NCBI GenBank assembly: GCA_016795295.1
Contig: JAEUHP010000171.1
Span: forward strand, 1-64,000
DNA from: Planctomycetota bacterium
GTDB taxonomy: Bacteria > Planctomycetota > UBA1135 > UBA2386
Direction: 5' to 3'
DNA: 64,000 nucleotides
In this document: positions 8,929 to 16,953 of the stretch, in pieces
Layout of the letters: every line of letters starts with the position of its first letter
Position numbering within the stretch: position 1 is the first letter of the stretch
Translations under genes and position numbers: made by a program
Notes under the pieces: model-generated
Told to the model about the DNA's origin: nothing
The model's database searches: none
Seen by the model: the letters and a program-made list of their open reading frames with translations, nothing else

Positions 8929-10359
8929 ATGTCCATGGCAACCTCCCGGTGCATCTCCTCCACGGCGGCGCTGGCCAGTGCGCTCACCAGCGTGCTGCTC
9001 GCCCAGGCCCCGACGCCGAGCACGACGCCCCGCTCCGCCGAGGCCATCACCGCCGAGCTCGACGCCCTGTTCCAGCCCCTGGTGGCCGGCGGCCTCTGCC
9101 CCGGCCTCGTGGTCGGCGTGCTCGACGGCGATTTCCGCTGCGTGCGCGGCTACGGCCAGCGCGCCGCCGACCAACCGACCCAGCCCACTGGCGCGACCCT
9201 CTACGAAATCGGCTCCAACAGCAAGGTCTTCACCGGCCTCCTGCTGGCCGATGCCGTGGTGCGTGGCGTGGTGCGCCTCGACGACCCGGTGCAGAAGTTC
9301 CTGCCCGAAGACGTGCCGCTGCCGAGCCACGAGCCGGACCAGCCGATCCTGCTGTGGCACCTCGCCACCCACAGTTCGGGGCTGCCACGGCTGCCCGACA
9401 TGAAGGGCAGCGACCCCCAGGACCCCTACGCACACTTCACGGTCGAACGCCTGCATCAGGCCCTGCCCAAACTGCGCGTGCGGCGCGCGCCTGGCGCCAA
9501 GTACGAATACAGCAACCTCGGTGCGGGCCTGTTGGGCCACGTGCTCGCCCGCGCCCAGGGCTGTGCCGACTACGAGAGCCTGCTGCGCGAACGCCTCTGC
9601 AAGCCACTCGGCCTCGCCGACACCGTGGTGGCGCTCACGCCGGAGCTGCAGCAGCGCCTCGCGCCGCCACACGACGCCGATGGCGACCCGGACCACCTCT
9701 GGGACCTGGCCGCGCTGGCCGGTGCTGGCGGCATCCGCAGCACGGTCGACGACCTGCTGCGCTTCCTCGGCGCCCAGATCACCCCACCGGAGCCCCTGGC
9801 GGCGGCCGTGCGGCTCAGCCAGCAGAAGCACCACGACGGCCAGAACGGCATCGCCATGGCGCTTGGCTGGCACCTGGCACGCGACGGCGCGACGTTCGTG
9901 CACAGCGGCCAGACCGGCGGCTACCACTCCTACTGCGCGGTGGTGCCGAGCACGCGCCGCGCAGTGTGTGTGCTGACCAACAGCCCGACCGGCCAGATCG
10001 ACGTGGCCGGTGAACGCTTGGTGCAGTTCCTGCACGGCATGTCGGTGGCCCCGCTGGCCGTCGCGCCGCCGGTGGCGCTCGAACGCAGCGTGCTGGCGCG
10101 CTACGTCGGCAGCTACCGCATGAACACGCTGCTCAAGTTCACGGTGACGCTCGGCGAACGTGGCCTCTCGGCGCAATTGACCGGCCAGCCGGCGTTGCGC
10201 ATCCACCCCCGTTCGGCCACCGAGTTCGCCTACCGCGCGGTCGACGCCAGCATCACGTTCGAACTGGACGGCGAGACGGTGACGGCCTTGGTCTTGCACC
10301 AGAACGGCCAAGACGTCCGCTGCGAACGCATCGCAGCGCCAGCGGCAGCCGGCAAGTGA
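8929..10359 (+). CDS. Serine beta-lactamase/DD-peptidase-like exported hydrolase
   Basis: 476 residues with a signal peptide (about 1-26, ending LLAQ). It belongs to the class C beta-lactamase / AmpC-EstB / penicillin-binding family: catalytic S96-N-S-K99 in EIGSNSKVFTG, Y194-S-N196 in YEYSNLG, and H325-S-G in VHSGQTGGY in place of KTG. A C-terminal domain of about 100 residues (from about residue 385) resembles DUF3471-type lipocalin-like tails. The HSG triad is common in esterases and D-aminopeptidases of this family, so true beta-lactamase activity should not be assumed. Periplasmic. It is followed by two strong hairpins. Confidence 0.85.
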   Translation: MSMATSRCISSTAALASALTSVLLAQAPTPSTTPRSAEAITAELDALFQPLVAGGLCPGLVVGVLDGDFRCVRGYGQRAADQPTQPTGATLYEIGSNSKVFTGLLLADAVVRGVVRLDDPVQKFLPEDVPLPSHEPDQPILLWHLATHSSGLPRLPDMKGSDPQDPYAHFTVERLHQALPKLRVRRAPGAKYEYSNLGAGLLGHVLARAQGCADYESLLRERLCKPLGLADTVVALTPELQQRLAPPHDADGDPDHLWDLAALAGAGGIRSTVDDLLRFLGAQITPPEPLAAAVRLSQQKHHDGQNGIAMALGWHLARDGATFVHSGQTGGYHSYCAVVPSTRRAVCVLTNSPTGQIDVAGERLVQFLHGMSVAPLAVAPPVALERSVLARYVGSYRMNTLLKFTVTLGERGLSAQLTGQPALRIHPRSATEFAYRAVDASITFELDGETVTALVLHQNGQDVRCERIAAPAAAGK

Positions 10360-10366
10360 CGCATGG

Positions 10367-10415
10367 GCCGGCCGCCACCGGCGGCCGGCGCGGGACCCGC
10401 CCTCAGGTGGGCGGG
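10367..10415 (+). terminator. Tandem GC-rich hairpins after the beta-lactamase-like gene
   Basis: Two perfect inverted repeats follow each other within 8-56 bp of the stop codon. The first has 9-bp arms (GCCGGCCGC 10367-10375 and its complement 10381-10389) around a 5-nt loop. The second has 7-bp arms (CCCGCCC 10396-10402 and GGGCGGG 10409-10415) around 6 nt. There is no T-run, so this is a hairpin-type end or mRNA-stabilising structure rather than a classical intrinsic terminator. Confidence 0.5.
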
Positions 10416-10454
10416 GCGAACTGCCGATAGCACGGGGACCAAGGAGACGGCGCA

Positions 10455-11510
10455 ATGACCGAGACAGGCAATCCCCGAGTGGTGCTGGTGGTTCCAACCG
10501 TGCGGCAGGAGTGCATGCGGCAGTTCCTGGACGCGTGGGAACCCGAGTTCGCGGGCCACGAACTGATCGTCGTGGAAGACAACCCCGAACGCACCTTCGA
10601 ACTGCGCAGCAGCGCGCGCATCACGCACTACAGTTGGCGCGACATCGACCAGACGCTCGGCGAGAACCGCTGGATCGTGCCGCGGCGGACCGACTGCGTG
10701 CGCAGCTTCGGCTACTGGCAGGCGTGGCGCAGGAAGCCCGACCTGATCGTCACCCTCGACGACGATTGCCTGCCGCCGGCGTCCGGCCCGCGCGGCTTCC
10801 TGGCCGCGCACTGGCGGCGGCTGGAGCAGGGCGGCGGCCACGACGCGTGGGTGTCGACCACCAGCGGCACCGTGCCGCGCGGTGTGCCCTACCACGAACG
10901 GCAGCGCCGCCAGCGCGCGGTGATCAACCACGGCCTGTGGACCAACGTCATCGACTACGACGCGATCACGCAATTGAGCCAGGTGCGCACGCCGACGCCG
11001 GTCGACTTCCCGGACCAGACCATCCCGCGCGGCGCCTTCTATCCGATGTGCGGCATGAACCTGGCGTTCCGGCCGGAGATCACGCCGGCGCTGTACTTCC
11101 TGCTGATGGGCCGCGACTTTGGCGTCGACCGCTTCGGCGACATCTGGGCCGGCCTGTTCAGCAAGCGCATCTGCGACCATCTCGGTTGGGCGGTCAACAG
11201 CGGCAGCCCGACCGTGCACCACGCGCGCGCCTCGAACGTGTGGGCCAACCTGCGCAAGGAAGCGCCCGGCATGGAACGCAACGAGACGCTGTGGCGGCTG
11301 GTCGACGGCACGGTGCTGACCGCGACCACGCCGGCCGGTTGTTACCGCGAACTGGCCGCGGCGGTGGCGGCGGTCGCCGGCGACGATGCGTGGCTGCAGA
11401 AGGTGGCCACGGCGATGCGCCTCTGGAGCGAGCTGTTCGTCGAACCCACCGTGGCTCTGCAGCCGCAGCCGGGCCAGCGCGAGAAGGTGCCCGCCGGAGT
11501 GTTGGCGTGA
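10455..11510 (+). CDS. Reversibly glycosylated polypeptide / UDP-arabinopyranose mutase-like protein
   Basis: 351 residues closely matching the plant RGP/UAM layout: TLDDDCLPP (acidic D102-D104), SGTVPRGVPYHER, FYPMCGMNLAF, YFLLMGRDFGVDRFGDIWAG, CDHLGWAV and ASNVWANLRKE. From memory, two arginines seven residues apart (R158 and R165 in rice) are needed for reversible glycosylation and mutase activity. Here R142 and R149 have the same spacing. The predicted reaction is UDP-arabinopyranose to UDP-arabinofuranose, or transfer of another sugar nucleotide, in the cytosol. GGAG 8 nt before the ATG supports the start. The stop overlaps the GTG start of the next glycosyltransferase, which implies translational coupling and a glycan-building role. 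Confidence 0.85.
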   Translation: MTETGNPRVVLVVPTVRQECMRQFLDAWEPEFAGHELIVVEDNPERTFELRSSARITHYSWRDIDQTLGENRWIVPRRTDCVRSFGYWQAWRRKPDLIVTLDDDCLPPASGPRGFLAAHWRRLEQGGGHDAWVSTTSGTVPRGVPYHERQRRQRAVINHGLWTNVIDYDAITQLSQVRTPTPVDFPDQTIPRGAFYPMCGMNLAFRPEITPALYFLLMGRDFGVDRFGDIWAGLFSKRICDHLGWAVNSGSPTVHHARASNVWANLRKEAPGMERNETLWRLVDGTVLTATTPAGCYRELAAAVAAVAGDDAWLQKVATAMRLWSELFVEPTVALQPQPGQREKVPAGVLA

Positions 11511-14500
11511 GTGCTGGGGCCGCGGTGGCGCTGCCCCGGGTGGCGGTGGTGTTCGCCGTCTGCAACCACCGCGCCACCTTGCCAGCGCTGCTGGCGGCAC
11601 TCGAACGCACCGACTGGCCGGAGCTGCAGATCGTCGCCGTCGACTGCGGTTCGACCGACGGTTCCCTGACGCTGCTGCGCCAACGCGCCGCGGCCTCAGG
11701 GCTGCCGTTCACACTGCTCGAACTCCCCGGGGTCGGCCGCGCCACGGCCCTGCAAGCCGGCTTCGACACCGCCGGCACCGCCGACGTGGTGCGCGTGCAC
11801 GCCGACGTGGTGCCCGACGGCACCGCGTGGCTGCACGGCCTGCACCGCGTGCTGGTCCAGCATCCCGAGTGCGGCATCGTCGGCGCGAAGATCGCGCTGG
11901 CCACCGGCCGCCTGCAATCGTGCGGTCGCAGCCTGATCTCCGGTCTCGGCATCGCCGGCGACTGGAGCAACCTGCGCTGGCAGGAGGGCGACCGCGACGA
12001 AGCAACCCGTCCGACCGAAGTCGACGGCGTGGCCGGCGAACTGTGCTGGATCCGCCGCACCGTGCTCGACCGGACCGGTGGCCTCGACGCCAACTTCGAT
12101 CCGGTGTTCGGCGACGACGACGATCTGTGCCTGCGTGCGCGCTGGCACGGCTTCGCGGTGTTCGTCGAACCCGCCGTGCGCGGCGTGCACTTCGGCCCGC
12201 GCTGGACGCCGTCGACCAACGCCAGCATGGCGGAGCCCAGCGGCCAACTCGAGCGCTGGCTCACCGACCGCACCGCCCTCGCCACCGCGCACCGCGACTA
12301 CTGGCAGCGCAAGTGGGGTTTCGACCCGGCCGCCCCCGACCTGCACGAGGTGCGCCGCCGCTATGGCCACACGCGCATCTGCTGGCGCATCGGCGAACGG
12401 CTCACCGAACGGCTCGCTGCGCAACCGGCCGTCGACGCCTGCCTGGTGACGTGGAACAGCCGGCAGCTGCTGCCGCGCATGCTGGACGCGCTGGCCGAGA
12501 CGCAGTACCCGAACCTCGAAGTCTGGATCGCCGACAACGGCAGCACCGACGGCACGCGCGAGTACCTGGCCGAACGCCGGGCCGACTTCCCGTTCCCGCT
12601 GCACGTGCTGGAACTGCCGCAGAACATGGGCGTGGCGCAGGGCCTCAACGTGGCGTTCGCCGCGGGCAAGGCGCCGCTGGTCGCCCGACTCGACGACGAC
12701 ACCATCGTCTCGCCCGAGTGGCTCGAACGGCTGGTGCCGCGTTTCCACCAGCGTCCCTACGCCGGCATGGTCGGCCCAGCCATCGACAACGACAACGAAG
12801 GCGCGGGCCTGCAAGCCGGTCCGTGCCGCGAATGGCCCGCAGGCCTGCCCGGCAACCGCGCGCAGGACCACGGCGTGGCACAGGGCCTGGTGCGGGTGGT
12901 CACCGTGCGCGGCTGCTGCAACCTGTACCGGCGCTCGGTGTTCTCGACCATCGGCCTGCTCGACGTGCGCTTCTCACCGAGCCAGTTCGACGAGTGGGAC
13001 CACCACGTGGCCTTGTGCGTCGCCGGCTACGAGGCGCTGTACGACGGCTCGGTCACGGTGCGCCACCAATTGACGCAAGGGCGCGTGGCCACGCCGGCGG
13101 CCCGCGCCAATTCGTTCGGCAACCACGCGAAGTCGCGCGGCAAGTGGAGTCCCGACCACGTCGAAGCGCTGCACCGTGGCATCGATCTGTCGATCGACGG
13201 CCGCCTGCTGCCGCCCGACGGCGACACCTCGGCCTTGCGCGCCCACCTGCCGCGAGTGCCGGCCGGGCCGCCCGGCCCAGTGCCCCGCGACCCGGACGAA
13301 TTGGCGGAGCTCACGGCGCGGGCCCGGCGCTGCAGCCTGCTGCGTTCGCCGGACGGGCCGCTGGCGCCATGGTGGCACCACCAGCTCGAGTTCGCGGAAG
13401 AAGCGCAGCGCCTCGGCGACCCGCGCAGCGCTGCGGTGGCCCAATGCGTGCAGGATCTCTGGAGCCACGAGCCGCGCACGCTCCTGTTGGTGGCCAGGCA
13501 GTGGGCCGCGGACGGCGACCTGGAGCGCGCCAGGACCCTGGCCGAACGGGCGACCTGGCTGGCGCCCGATCGCCCGGAGGTCGCGCTCGCTGCGGCCGAG
13601 CTGCGCACGCCCCGCGGGGCCCCGGCGGTGCCTCGCACCGATCGCACCGAACCGCCCCAACCGCGCGTGCTGTTGCTGCCACCGCTCGACGACGGCCAGG
13701 AGCAGGCCCAGCGTTCCGCGCGGCTGGTCCAGGCCGCGCTGCACAGCATCGGGATCGCCGCGGCGATCGAAACCCGCCTGACTCCGGACCTGCGCGGCGC
13801 CACGGTGGTGCACGCGTTCGGCCTGCTCGATGCGCCGACCTTGCTCGGCCGTCTGCAGGTCGTGCGCGCCATGCAAGCGCCGACCCGCATCGTCCTGTCG
13901 CCGCTGCTCGGCGACGCTGGCCGCGCGCGCTGGCTCGAGCAGGTGCTCGGCAGCAACCAGCTGCGCAGCGCCCAGGAACTGCGCGGCGTGTTCGCCGCGC
14001 TCGCCAACGGCAAGGTGCGGCTGGAGGGCTGCAAGGACGGTCGCTACGACCCGCCCGAGCCGAGCCACGTGCGCGCCTACGAGGCTCGGTGTCTGTCGTT
14101 CTGCGACGCCGTGCTCGCCCACCGTGCCGAGGATCTGACCTGGCTCGCCACACGCCACCCCGGACTGCCGCCGCGACACTGCGTGCCCGAAGGCGTGCCC
14201 TGCATCCCCACGCCGCCGCCGACCCAGCGCGAACCGATGGCGCACGGGGCGCTGTTCGTCGGCCCGCTCGATCTGGTCGACGGGCACCTGGCCACCGTGC
14301 TCGCGCTGCAGGGCTCGGGGCTGCCGCTGACCTTGTACGGCCGCAGCCAGCCGAAGGTCGCCGGCTGGCATCTGCGCAGCCTCGGTGGTCCCGCAGTGCA
14401 CTGGCGCGGCCCCCTGGACGATCAGGGCCTGCTGGCCGCGTGTGCCGCCAGTGCCGTGCTGGTCTGGCTGCCCGCGGCACCGGTGTCGTTCGATCTGCCG

Positions 14501-14830
14501 CTGCGCGCCGCCGTGGCCGGCTGTGGCCTGGTGCTGCCGAAGGGTGTCGGTGCCGAGGCGGTGTTCGGCGCACTCGCGAGCTACGTCGACCCCGCCGACC
14601 TCGCCGGCGTGCGCACCGCGGCGCTCGCCGAGGCCGCACACGCGCGCGACCCGGCACGCGCGCCTGCGCGCGCGGCACTGCGCGAGGCCGCCTCGCTGCA
14701 GCGCTACGGCGCCGCGCTGGCAGCGGTCTATGGCCTGCCAGGGTCCTACACGTTGCCGCAAGCGGTGCGCCAAGCCGGCCAGACGCACGGGCTGCCGGCG
14801 GCCGCGCACCTCGCCTGCCGCACGGGGTGA
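11507..14830 (+). CDS. Multidomain glycosyltransferase (GT2-GT2-helical-GT4-like)
   Basis: 1,107 residues from a GTG start that overlaps the previous stop (GTGA) and has GGAG 7 nt upstream. The first GT2 domain (~10-285) shows VAVVFAVCNHRATLPALL, VDCGSTDGS and FGDDDDLCLRAR. The second (~307-575) shows CLVTWNSRQLLPRML, ADNGSTDGT, ARLDDDTIVSPEW and a DEWDH acceptor motif. Residues ~595-715 are helical and TPR-like. The remainder (~718-1107) looks like a GT4/GT-B fold with a degenerate first half. It likely adds two or three different sugars to a surface glycan. Which donors it uses is unknown, though a furanose supplied by the upstream mutase is plausible. Confidence 0.85.
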   Translation: MSAGAAVALPRVAVVFAVCNHRATLPALLAALERTDWPELQIVAVDCGSTDGSLTLLRQRAAASGLPFTLLELPGVGRATALQAGFDTAGTADVVRVHADVVPDGTAWLHGLHRVLVQHPECGIVGAKIALATGRLQSCGRSLISGLGIAGDWSNLRWQEGDRDEATRPTEVDGVAGELCWIRRTVLDRTGGLDANFDPVFGDDDDLCLRARWHGFAVFVEPAVRGVHFGPRWTPSTNASMAEPSGQLERWLTDRTALATAHRDYWQRKWGFDPAAPDLHEVRRRYGHTRICWRIGERLTERLAAQPAVDACLVTWNSRQLLPRMLDALAETQYPNLEVWIADNGSTDGTREYLAERRADFPFPLHVLELPQNMGVAQGLNVAFAAGKAPLVARLDDDTIVSPEWLERLVPRFHQRPYAGMVGPAIDNDNEGAGLQAGPCREWPAGLPGNRAQDHGVAQGLVRVVTVRGCCNLYRRSVFSTIGLLDVRFSPSQFDEWDHHVALCVAGYEALYDGSVTVRHQLTQGRVATPAARANSFGNHAKSRGKWSPDHVEALHRGIDLSIDGRLLPPDGDTSALRAHLPRVPAGPPGPVPRDPDELAELTARARRCSLLRSPDGPLAPWWHHQLEFAEEAQRLGDPRSAAVAQCVQDLWSHEPRTLLLVARQWAADGDLERARTLAERATWLAPDRPEVALAAAELRTPRGAPAVPRTDRTEPPQPRVLLLPPLDDGQEQAQRSARLVQAALHSIGIAAAIETRLTPDLRGATVVHAFGLLDAPTLLGRLQVVRAMQAPTRIVLSPLLGDAGRARWLEQVLGSNQLRSAQELRGVFAALANGKVRLEGCKDGRYDPPEPSHVRAYEARCLSFCDAVLAHRAEDLTWLATRHPGLPPRHCVPEGVPCIPTPPPTQREPMAHGALFVGPLDLVDGHLATVLALQGSGLPLTLYGRSQPKVAGWHLRSLGGPAVHWRGPLDDQGLLAACAASAVLVWLPAAPVSFDLPLRAAVAGCGLVLPKGVGAEAVFGALASYVDPADLAGVRTAALAEAAHARDPARAPARAALREAASLQRYGAALAAVYGLPGSYTLPQAVRQAGQTHGLPAAAHLACRTG

Positions 14831-14875: not shown

Positions 14876-15703
14876 ATGAATGTGGCCCTGGTCGACCAGC
14901 GCTCCGCGTGGCGTTCGCTGTCGTACTTCGTCTTGCGCCATGTGCTCCGCCACGAACAGATCACGGCGCGGCTGCCGGGCCTCGACCTGCGCATCCGCGC
15001 CTACACCCGCGACTTGATGGGGCGGCACCTGTACAAGCGCGGGCAATACGAGCAGATCCTCAGCAACTTCGTGTTGCACGAACTGCAACTCGCCGACGAC
15101 GCCGTGGCGCTCGATCTCGGGGCCAATCTCGGCTGGTACTCGCTGTTGCTGGCCCGGCGCTGGCCACAGCTGCGCATCCACGCCTTCGAGCCCGAGCCGC
15201 GCAATCTGGCGCTGCTCGAGCGCAATGTCCGAGACAACGGCATCACCAACGTCACCGTGCACGGCGCAGCGGTCGCGGAGCGCGGTGGCACCATGGAGTT
15301 CTATCCCTACCCGGAGAAGAACATGGGGCGCCACTCCCTGGTCCCGCAGCCCGGGTGCACGCCGATCACGGTGCCGGTGACGACCGTCGACGATTTTCTG
15401 CAGCGCGCGCAGCTGGATCCGGGCGCCGTCCAGTTCGTGAAGCTCGACGTCGAAGGCTACGAGCTGCCGGCGCTGCAAGGCGCCCGATCCCTGCTCGCGG
15501 CACGACCTCGCATCCTCGCCGAGTTCGCGCCGAAGTACCTGCGCCGCGCCGGCCAGGACCCCGCGGCGCTGCTGCAGTTCCTGCAGGATGCGGGGTTCCG
15601 GCCGTTCTCGTGCACGGCTCGCGGTGTGCAGCCATTGGACTTGACCGGCCTCGCGGACGGCATGCGCCGCGTGGACATCCTGTGGCAGAAAGCGGGCTCC
15701 TGA
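14876..15703 (+). CDS. FkbM-family SAM-dependent methyltransferase
   Basis: 275 residues. The SAM-binding motif I is ALDLGANLGWYS (D80-G86), followed by the acidic loop HAFEPEPRNLALLERN and the FkbM signature FVKLDVEGYELPALQGA. The family O-methylates sugars or other acceptors. In this position, after two glycan enzymes and before a sugar aminotransferase, methylation of a surface polysaccharide residue is the likely role. It is separated from the glycosyltransferase gene by 45 bp and has its own TANNNT element, so it may be independently transcribed. Confidence 0.88.
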   Translation: MNVALVDQRSAWRSLSYFVLRHVLRHEQITARLPGLDLRIRAYTRDLMGRHLYKRGQYEQILSNFVLHELQLADDAVALDLGANLGWYSLLLARRWPQLRIHAFEPEPRNLALLERNVRDNGITNVTVHGAAVAERGGTMEFYPYPEKNMGRHSLVPQPGCTPITVPVTTVDDFLQRAQLDPGAVQFVKLDVEGYELPALQGARSLLAARPRILAEFAPKYLRRAGQDPAALLQFLQDAGFRPFSCTARGVQPLDLTGLADGMRRVDILWQKAGS

Positions 15704-15801: not shown

Positions 15802-16953
15802 ATGCGCTCTTCCTACTTGGTGTTCGGTCAGCCCCTGATCGAGCCACCCGAAATCGACGAAGTGCTCGCCTCGCTGCGCTCGGCGTGGCTCGGCACCGGA
15901 CCCAAGGTCGCCGAGTTCGAACGCCGCGTGGCCGCCTACAAGGGCGTGCCGCACGCCCTGGCCCTGAACTCCTGCACCGCCGGACTGCACCTCGCCTGCC
16001 TGGTGCTCGGCCTCGGGCCGGGCGACGAAGTCATCACCACGCCCCTGACCTTCTGCGCGTCGGTGAACGCCATCGTGCACGCCGGGGCCACCCCGGTGCT
16101 GGCCGACGTCGATCCGCTGACCATGAACCTCGATCCGGCCGAGGTGCGGCGCAAGATCACCAAACGCACCAAGGCGCTGCTGCCGGTGCACTTCGCCGGG
16201 CGCCCCTGCGCGATGGCCGAACTGATGGCGATCGCGGCCGAACACCGCCTCAAGGTGATCGAAGACTGCGCCCACGCCATCGAAACCGAGTACCGCGGCC
16301 AACGCGCCGGCACCATCGGCGACCTCGGCGTGCTGTCGTTCTACTCGACCAAGAACATCGTCACCGGCGAGGGCGGCATGGTGCTGACGCGCGATCCGGA
16401 GCTGGCCCGCCGCATCAAGGTGATGGGCCTGCACGGCATGTCGGCCGACGCCTGGAAGCGCTTCTCCGACGACGGCTACAAGCACTACGACGTCGAGGAG
16501 ATCGGCTTCAAGTACAACATGATGGACCTGCAGGCGGCGATCGGCATGCACCAGATCGGCCGCGTCGAAGCGTGGTGGCAACGGCGCTGGCAGATCTGGC
16601 AGCGCTACCTGCGCGAACTCGGCGATCTGCCGCTCGGCTTGCCGGCTGGCTGGCCGGCCGACGAACGCCACGCACTGCACCTGTTCGTGCTGCAAGTGGA
16701 TCGCGCCCGCTGCGGCCGTTCGCGCGATGAGCTGCTGATGGATCTGCATCGGCAGAACATCGGTTCCGGGGTGCACTACCGGTCGATTCCGAGCCTCTCG
16801 GTCTACCAGCGACGCTTCGGCTGGCGACGCGAGGACACGCCGGTGGCGACGGCACTCGGCGACCGCGCCCTGTCGCTGCCGTTGTCGCCGAAGCTCACCG
16901 ACGACGACGTGGGCGACGTGATCGCGGCGGTGCGGCACGCGCTGCGGCGCTGA
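15802..16953 (+). CDS. DegT/DnrJ/EryC1/StrS sugar aminotransferase
   Basis: 383 residues. PLP-dependent fold with the family motifs ALNSCTAGLHLAC, ITTPLTFCASVNA, VIEDCAHA (D155 contacts the PLP ring nitrogen) and SFYSTKNIVTGEGG, where K184 forms the Schiff base. The C-terminal part has VHYRSIPSLSVYQRRFGW, which binds the sugar nucleotide in homologues. It should aminate a keto-sugar nucleotide for polysaccharide assembly, in keeping with the glycosyltransferase and methyltransferase genes just upstream. The sugar cannot be told from sequence. Full length for the family (about 370-400 residues). Confidence 0.92.
   Translation: MRSSYLVFGQPLIEPPEIDEVLASLRSAWLGTGPKVAEFERRVAAYKGVPHALALNSCTAGLHLACLVLGLGPGDEVITTPLTFCASVNAIVHAGATPVLADVDPLTMNLDPAEVRRKITKRTKALLPVHFAGRPCAMAELMAIAAEHRLKVIEDCAHAIETEYRGQRAGTIGDLGVLSFYSTKNIVTGEGGMVLTRDPELARRIKVMGLHGMSADAWKRFSDDGYKHYDVEEIGFKYNMMDLQAAIGMHQIGRVEAWWQRRWQIWQRYLRELGDLPLGLPAGWPADERHALHLFVLQVDRARCGRSRDELLMDLHRQNIGSGVHYRSIPSLSVYQRRFGWRREDTPVATALGDRALSLPLSPKLTDDDVGDVIAAVRHALRR

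Follow-up and report, generated by a model that had tools for sequence, protein, structure and literature searches.

A planctomycete member of the GT75 family as a candidate flavin-free NDP-pyranose mutase

MtdL and Hyg20, two bacterial GT75 enzymes, are encoded in actinobacterial antibiotic clusters. In 2023 they were the only bacterial members of the family described as characterised, both as GDP-sugar mutases of antibiotic clusters, and CAZy GT75 already had bacterial and archaeal entries (PMC9937993, drawn on in part throughout). Work on MtdL and the plant enzyme AtRGP2 points to a diphosphate held by metal, attack by an arginine on C1, ring opening, closure through O4 and release, a mechanism that its authors regard as not unambiguously established; rice UAM2 is called inactive (PMC9937993). 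In Campylobacter jejuni HS:15, three steps lead to UDP-L-Arap, the last by an epimerase first annotated as UDP-glucose 4-epimerase (PMC10615251, also drawn on in part).

We followed up a gene in a 64,000-nucleotide stretch of DNA (the window) that an initial annotation had read as a bacterial homologue of plant UDP-arabinopyranose mutase from a planctomycete. The features are collected in Table 1. The protein matched PF03214, the reversibly glycosylated polypeptide (RGP) family, CAZy GT75, with 160.1 bits (cut-off 23.8, E 1.1e-46), residues 9-328 aligning with positions 6-337 of the 342 in the profile. No other Pfam family matched at E<=0.001, the FAD-dependent mutase family PF03275 included, and PF03214 occurs once in the genome, a 5.5-Mb MAG. 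The distinct sequences found by a phmmer search of the PDB (E up to 1) numbered five: four belong to bacterial MtdL (best E 3.5e-21) and one to rice UAM2 (8cid, titled Oryza sativa UAM 2; E 4.7e-24). A 456-aa antisense ORF at 10230-11600 was taken as a high-GC shadow frame. The planctomycete origin is supported: among the protein's five closest named relatives, all are Planctomycetota MAGs except one, which is labelled just 'bacterium'.

Table 1. Features of the GT75 locus in the window
Feature	Position	Strand	Basis
GT75/RGP-family NDP-pyranose mutase (predicted), 351 aa, ATG start	10455..11510	+	PF03214 160 bits, fold Z, active-site residues
Shine-Dalgarno-like AAGGAG, 8 nt 5' of GT75 ATG	10441..10446	+	Sequence read
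DDDC, residues 102-105, metal/nucleotide motif; DDD = MtdL D109-D111	10758..10769	+	Sequence, alignment
R142 = MtdL R159 / OsUAM1 R158, autoglycosylated or nucleophilic Arg	10878..10880	+	Alignment; role from PMC9937993
Large glycosyltransferase, GTG start	11507..14830	+	PF00535 twice, alignment of 8 homologues, model and fold
FkbM-family methyltransferase, 45 nt 3' of transferase	14876..15703	+	TIGR01444 109.7 bits (cut-off 37.7); PF05050
DegT/DnrJ/EryC1 sugar aminotransferase	15802..16953	+	PF01041 406 bits

The sequence blocks on which the homology had been proposed were all found: besides DDDC, the protein has PRGVPYHER (residues 141-149, the PRG-x-x-x-x-x-R block), YPMCGMNLAF (196-205), DIWAG (229-233) and ASNVWANLRKE (259-269). 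Chance is ruled out by the PF03214 E value and by the conservation of D102, D104, R142, D167, D229 and H256, which are among 20 columns that do not vary across 53 aligned rows. The order of the blocks is as described, but it is not specific to plants, as bacterial MtdL has the same order. Similarly, R142 and R149 do lie seven residues apart, but R149 is no constant of the family: half of the bacterial rows (18 of 36) and 14 of the 39 viral ones have Arg there.

An AlphaFold model of the protein, built on 53 aligned sequences, had a mean pLDDT of 94.2 and a pTM of 0.90. VIA-align matched it to MtdL at Z 33.4-34.2 and to rice UAM2 at Z 33.3, with the next enzyme at 15.3; the best MtdL superposition aligned 302 residues (Z 34.2, rmsd 2.5). 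The structures outside GT75 that VIA-align matched were generic GT-A enzymes. Foldseek gave E 1.1e-23 and 1.8e-21 for MtdL and UAM2 and 3e-6 for the next match. The match covers residues 1-330 and thus includes, alongside the GT-A Rossmann part, the core and C-terminal helices described as peculiar to GT75 (PMC9937993). In sequence the protein is 30% identical to MtdL over 310 columns and 25% to rice UAM2 over 308, while the two are tied in fold.

We mapped the MtdL residues studied in PMC9937993 on a 92-row alignment, counting over 36 bacterial, 39 viral and 10 archaeal rows. Kept in the window protein, with MtdL numbers first, are D40 (D42), D87 (D80), R90 (R83), D109-D111 (D102-D104), R159 (R142), D195 (D167), R257 (R226), D260 (D229), H287 (H256) and R289 (R258). 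These include the residues necessary in MtdL, here D80, D102, R142, D167, R226 and D229, and the metal histidine H256 (PMC9937993). The marks of GT75 are therefore in place: the DDD metal motif with H256, and R142 with the aspartate pair D167 and D229. Both R142 and H256 are conserved in every bacterial, viral and archaeal row (36/36, 39/39 and 10/10 for each). In rice UAM2, MtdL positions 111, 257 and 287 are occupied by N, T and R.

The changed positions are T13 (P14), N42 (P44), S86 (T79), N112 (C105), S228-Q229 (G200-M201) and H292 (S260), so the MtdL signature of Thr13, Ser86 and Gln229 is absent. Position 13 is Pro in all 36 bacterial rows, as in active plant RGPs, and the Gly at position 228 is also of the active plant type (PMC9937993). 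Of the plant base pocket, Pro, Asp and Asp at MtdL positions 13, 42 and 86 (PMC9937993), the window protein agrees at P14 and differs at P44 and T79. The Asp at position 87 is of the MtdL type; D80 stands where AtRGP2 has S91, in place of the Ser of active plant RGPs, and across the bacterial and phage group to which the protein belongs this position is Asp, Ser, Ala or Gly. Judged from the alignment, the pocket is a mixture of plant-type and MtdL-type residues. The mutants described in PMC9937993 bear on these positions: T13P lowers the GDP affinity of MtdL and Q229A kills its activity, Asp at position 86 abolishes GDP binding, and position 87 contacts O4 of fucose; active plant RGPs have Asp at 86 and Ser at 87, and S91D kills the mutase activity of AtRGP2. 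As base choice is ascribed mainly to positions 13 and 86 (PMC9937993), the sequence of the window protein alone does not fix UDP over GDP.

The family is patchily distributed: of 392 genomes from the phylum 9 carry it, as do 7 out of 61 relatives (the window's own genome is counted in both). A scan of named genomes found 50 GT75 loci, including Planctomycetota, Acidobacteria, Chloroflexi, Nitrospirae, Patescibacteria and archaea. For the 92-row tree and the residue counts, 16 of the 101 loci from the named-genome and viral scans were dropped as near-copies or fragments (L039, L046, L067, L068, L086, L093, L100, L113, L116, L119, L122, L123, L125-L128); loci L001-L004, L008 and L010-L015 from the genome search likewise lie outside both. 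A 46-row tree used a hand-picked subset of the 92 rows. The window protein groups with its planctomycete relatives (support 100 in the 92-row tree, 100/100 in the 46-row tree) within a group made up of both bacterial and viral rows. MtdL is distant from it in both trees, and so are the planctomycete proteins L006, L007 and L009. These three, from another planctomycete family, form their own GT75 type on the MtdL side, with Gln at the metal-histidine position and Ile at MtdL D87.

The single plant row has a very long branch and, in the 46-row tree, falls on the same side of a 96/94 branch as the window protein. Pairing it with MtdL by itself was rejected by an AU test (p 0.037); placing it with the MtdL group was not (p 0.164). 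The phylogeny proposed as a check thus places the protein within the RGP family, while a specifically plant kinship does not emerge from trees with one plant row. Origin from a plant by transfer is likewise unsupported by the 92- and 46-row trees, which include one plant sequence. Two further observations concern the wider family. In four loci of Methanomethylicota archaea (L072, L074, L076, L078), the genes close to GT75 include those for an M20 peptidase, a nucleotidyltransferase and an SDR, together with a homocitrate-synthase-like gene. L038 and L039 are 25,899-bp contigs with the same assembly contig name and match, binned to a Phycisphaerae MAG and a KSB1 MAG, probably a binning error in public data.

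The viral-contig scan found 51 loci (L080-L130), whose GT75 relatives range in identity from 53% down to 23%. Phage hallmark clusters, each identified by one representative, lay no more than six genes away in 14 of them (large terminase in 5 loci, portal in 4, DNA polymerase III in 5). Among 50,697 phage records the sole match was in a 595-kb uncultured phage record (LR756511.1:205987-206910), and no PHROGs family matched the window protein. Viral and bacterial rows interleave in the 92-row tree, its starred branches forcing at least five changes of viral label. In L094, L104, L105, L110 and L115, GT75 is part of a GT4-GT2-GT75-SDR series, the overlap with the SDR being 4 or 8 nt; in L083, L097, L111 and L116 it has a phage portal gene on one side and, on the other, a radical-SAM/B12-binding gene with a prohead-protease-like gene after it, and so lies inside the structural module. 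It is possible that phage GT75 proteins supply furanosyl donors with which virions or DNA are decorated; titles and opening lines of abstracts in the open-access literature yielded no paper on them.

In the window, the GTG start of the large glycosyltransferase gene (11507-11509) overlaps the GT75 stop codon TGA (11508-11510) in a 4-nt GTGA, as had been noted initially. The same overlap is present in six of seven relatives compared (L030-L035), the seventh, L036, having a 21-nt gap. The transferase comprises two GT-A domains (6-229 and 305-522), with PF00535 (GT2) matching in two stretches, TPR-like helices (about 596-700) and a GT-B/GT4-like domain (717-1080), whose fold resembles that of sucrose-phosphate synthase and of GT4 enzymes like BshA (Z up to 27.2). 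Over its full length the protein is modelled weakly (pLDDT 65.7), with better values in the Rossmann cores; TPR and GT4 parts were also found in the homologues of L035 and L036. The FkbM methyltransferase gene is likely to be in the same operon as the pair. A DegT aminotransferase lies near the pair in four of the five nearest relatives (L030, L031, L033, L034), and the contig ends in the fifth, L032. Upstream, the window has a sigma-54 regulator and a beta-lactamase-fold protein, and L030-L034 have phosphoglucose isomerase and a sodium:solute symporter. As the upstream genes vary while the pair is kept, GT75 and transferase form a conserved unit.

We think it likely that the window protein is a divalent-metal-dependent, flavin-free NDP-pyranose mutase that supplies a furanose donor to the coupled transferase. 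The chemistry would be that of MtdL and the plant enzymes. D102-D104 and H256 would hold Mn/Mg and the diphosphate, and D229 would deprotonate R142, which would then attack the anomeric carbon (C1). The sugar would be held briefly on R142 while the ring opens and recloses through O4 as a furanose, before being given back to the nucleotide. The multi-module glycosyltransferase would add the furanose to a glycan, the presumed acceptor, which may be destined for the cell surface, and the FkbM methyltransferase and DegT aminotransferase may modify that same glycan.

The genes for sugar donors bear on the substrate. Contig C19 of the same genome (G000:C19:4691-8031, L147), unlinked to the GT75 gene, carries in tandem on one strand genes for an NDP-sugar dehydrogenase (UGD; TIGR03026 475 bits, cut-off 189.8), a UDP-glucuronate decarboxylase (UXS; matching human-type UXS1 chains with E 2.9e-103 and, for the best, 2.5e-103, against 4.3e-40 for the nearest other kind of enzyme) and an epimerase of GalE type (TIGR01179 372 bits, cut-off 262.3), the last two overlapping by 4 nt. 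This is likely a UDP-xylose/UDP-L-arabinose operon and could make UDP-L-Arap, although its GalE may only make UDP-Gal. No GLF-type flavin UDP-galactopyranose mutase matched in this genome, and relatives gave weak short stretches only (<=34.4 bits); no GDP-mannose 4,6-dehydratase (Gmd) was over the cut-off (best 152 of 415 bits). The MAG is 91% complete with 5.5% contamination, so such absences weigh little. The tandem, the missing GLF match and the low Gmd score together make UDP-L-Arap or UDP-Galp the likelier substrates.

We looked at the operon context of 30 UXS loci, out of 56 genomes with a UXS match. Of the 19 close UXS loci, 18 have GalE next to UXS (5 GT75-positive, 13 negative), and all three genes were seen in 15 of the 19. 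Within the same family, 5/6 GT75-positive and 13/28 negative genomes had UXS-GalE, those unexamined being counted as lacking it (Fisher p 0.18). Gmd was over the cut-off in 1/7 GT75-positive genomes, with a split hit in G425 in addition, and in 22/54 negative ones (Fisher p 0.24). Neither association is significant, and the presence of UXS itself, found in 56/61 genomes at E<=1e-60, does not discriminate. The genome's donor genes favour a UDP sugar, yet GT75-negative relatives carry the tandem too. Ten SDR genes near GT75 genes were all under NCBIfam cut-offs, so they do not name the sugar.

Initially read as a homologue of plant UDP-arabinopyranose mutase, the protein is confirmed as a member of RGP/GT75 whose mutase active site is intact; UDP-Arap is a tentative choice of substrate, the other candidates being UDP-Galp, GDP sugars and further NDP sugars. 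UDP-L-Arap is our best reading of the sugar, at a little under an even chance, and D80 and T79 (MtdL positions 87 and 86), which on the alignment are unlike the Ser and Asp of active plant RGPs, count against it. UDP-Galp or some other UDP or dTDP sugar we regard as a serious contender, also short of even. The narrower proposal that the enzyme converts UDP-D-Galp to UDP-D-Galf in place of the flavin enzyme is unlikely, if by no means far-fetched: GalE is over its cut-off, GLF is unmatched, and AtRGP2 and OsUAM1 carry out this conversion in vitro (PMC9937993), but the operon holds no pointer to Galf over Araf and sequence cannot separate them.

If the same chemistry took place on a GDP sugar of the kind used by MtdL and Hyg20 (GDP-L-fucose or GDP-L-galactose), it would suit D80 at the fucose O4 contact and the small T79 where Asp abolished GDP binding. 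The Pro at 13 and Met at 229, where T13P and Q229A were harmful (PMC9937993), speak against it, as do the Gmd scores and the distance of MtdL in both trees. We consider this specific case improbable, and a GDP sugar of any kind only slightly less so. It is very unlikely that the protein is no mutase at all but an autoglycosylating or ordinary glycosyltransferase, or inactive like OsUAM2 or AtRGP5. Some plant GT75 proteins do lack activity (PMC9937993), and the GT-A fold is common to GT2 enzymes. AtRGP5, however, is inactive and without the equivalents of R257 and H287 (PMC9937993), both of which are present in the window protein and in 35/36 and 36/36 bacterial rows. Returning to the arabinose reading, we tentatively suggest, while holding it to be rather less than probable, a bacterial, flavin-free, plant-like UDP-L-Araf step, in which UGD, UXS and GalE would make UDP-L-Arap and GT75 would convert it for the coupled furanosyltransferase. 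The enzyme belongs to a large group of uncharacterised GT75 proteins from bacteria and phages, and in this reading the phage members may make furanosyl donors for virions or DNA.

The FAD-dependent UDP-galactopyranose mutase (GLF, PF03275) resembles GT75 mutases in reaction type, on an unrelated fold. GT75 enzymes, in contrast, bind no FAD (PMC9937993). The C. jejuni HS:15 pathway (HS15.16-19) runs, as may be the case here, through UGD, UXS and a GalE-annotated 4-epimerase to a pyranose-furanose step, but its mutase is a flavin enzyme (PMC10615251), whereas here none matched and GT75 is the candidate. MtdL of Marinactinospora thermotolerans (PDB 7xps, 7xpt, 7yua) shares with the window protein the fold, the DDD motif, the equivalents of R159, D195, R257, D260 and H287, and Asp at position 87. 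It differs in its modest identity and at the changed positions listed above, and it belongs to an antibiotic cluster and acts on GDP-L-fucose and GDP-L-galactose (PMC9937993). Rice UAM2 (8cid) is alike in fold and in the order of the blocks around the DD-C, RG-P, MN-AF and DIW motifs, but is more distant in sequence and has neither the metal histidine nor the phosphate arginine. Active plant RGPs have Asp-Ser where the window protein has Thr-Asp (PMC9937993).

We found no report in the open-access literature of a bacterial GT75 making UDP-L-Araf, nor any linking reversibly glycosylated polypeptides with Planctomycetota. The window protein's group, from Planctomycetota, Acidobacteria, Chloroflexi, Patescibacteria and phages, differs in its pocket residues and has glycan clusters as its setting, and the variation at MtdL position 87 within it makes this a candidate position for sugar specificity. 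GT75 mutases are already known from plants and bacteria; a bacterial GT75 making UDP-L-Araf would be new, and the activity of one member of this group would tell whether bacteria share the UDP-Araf chemistry of plants.
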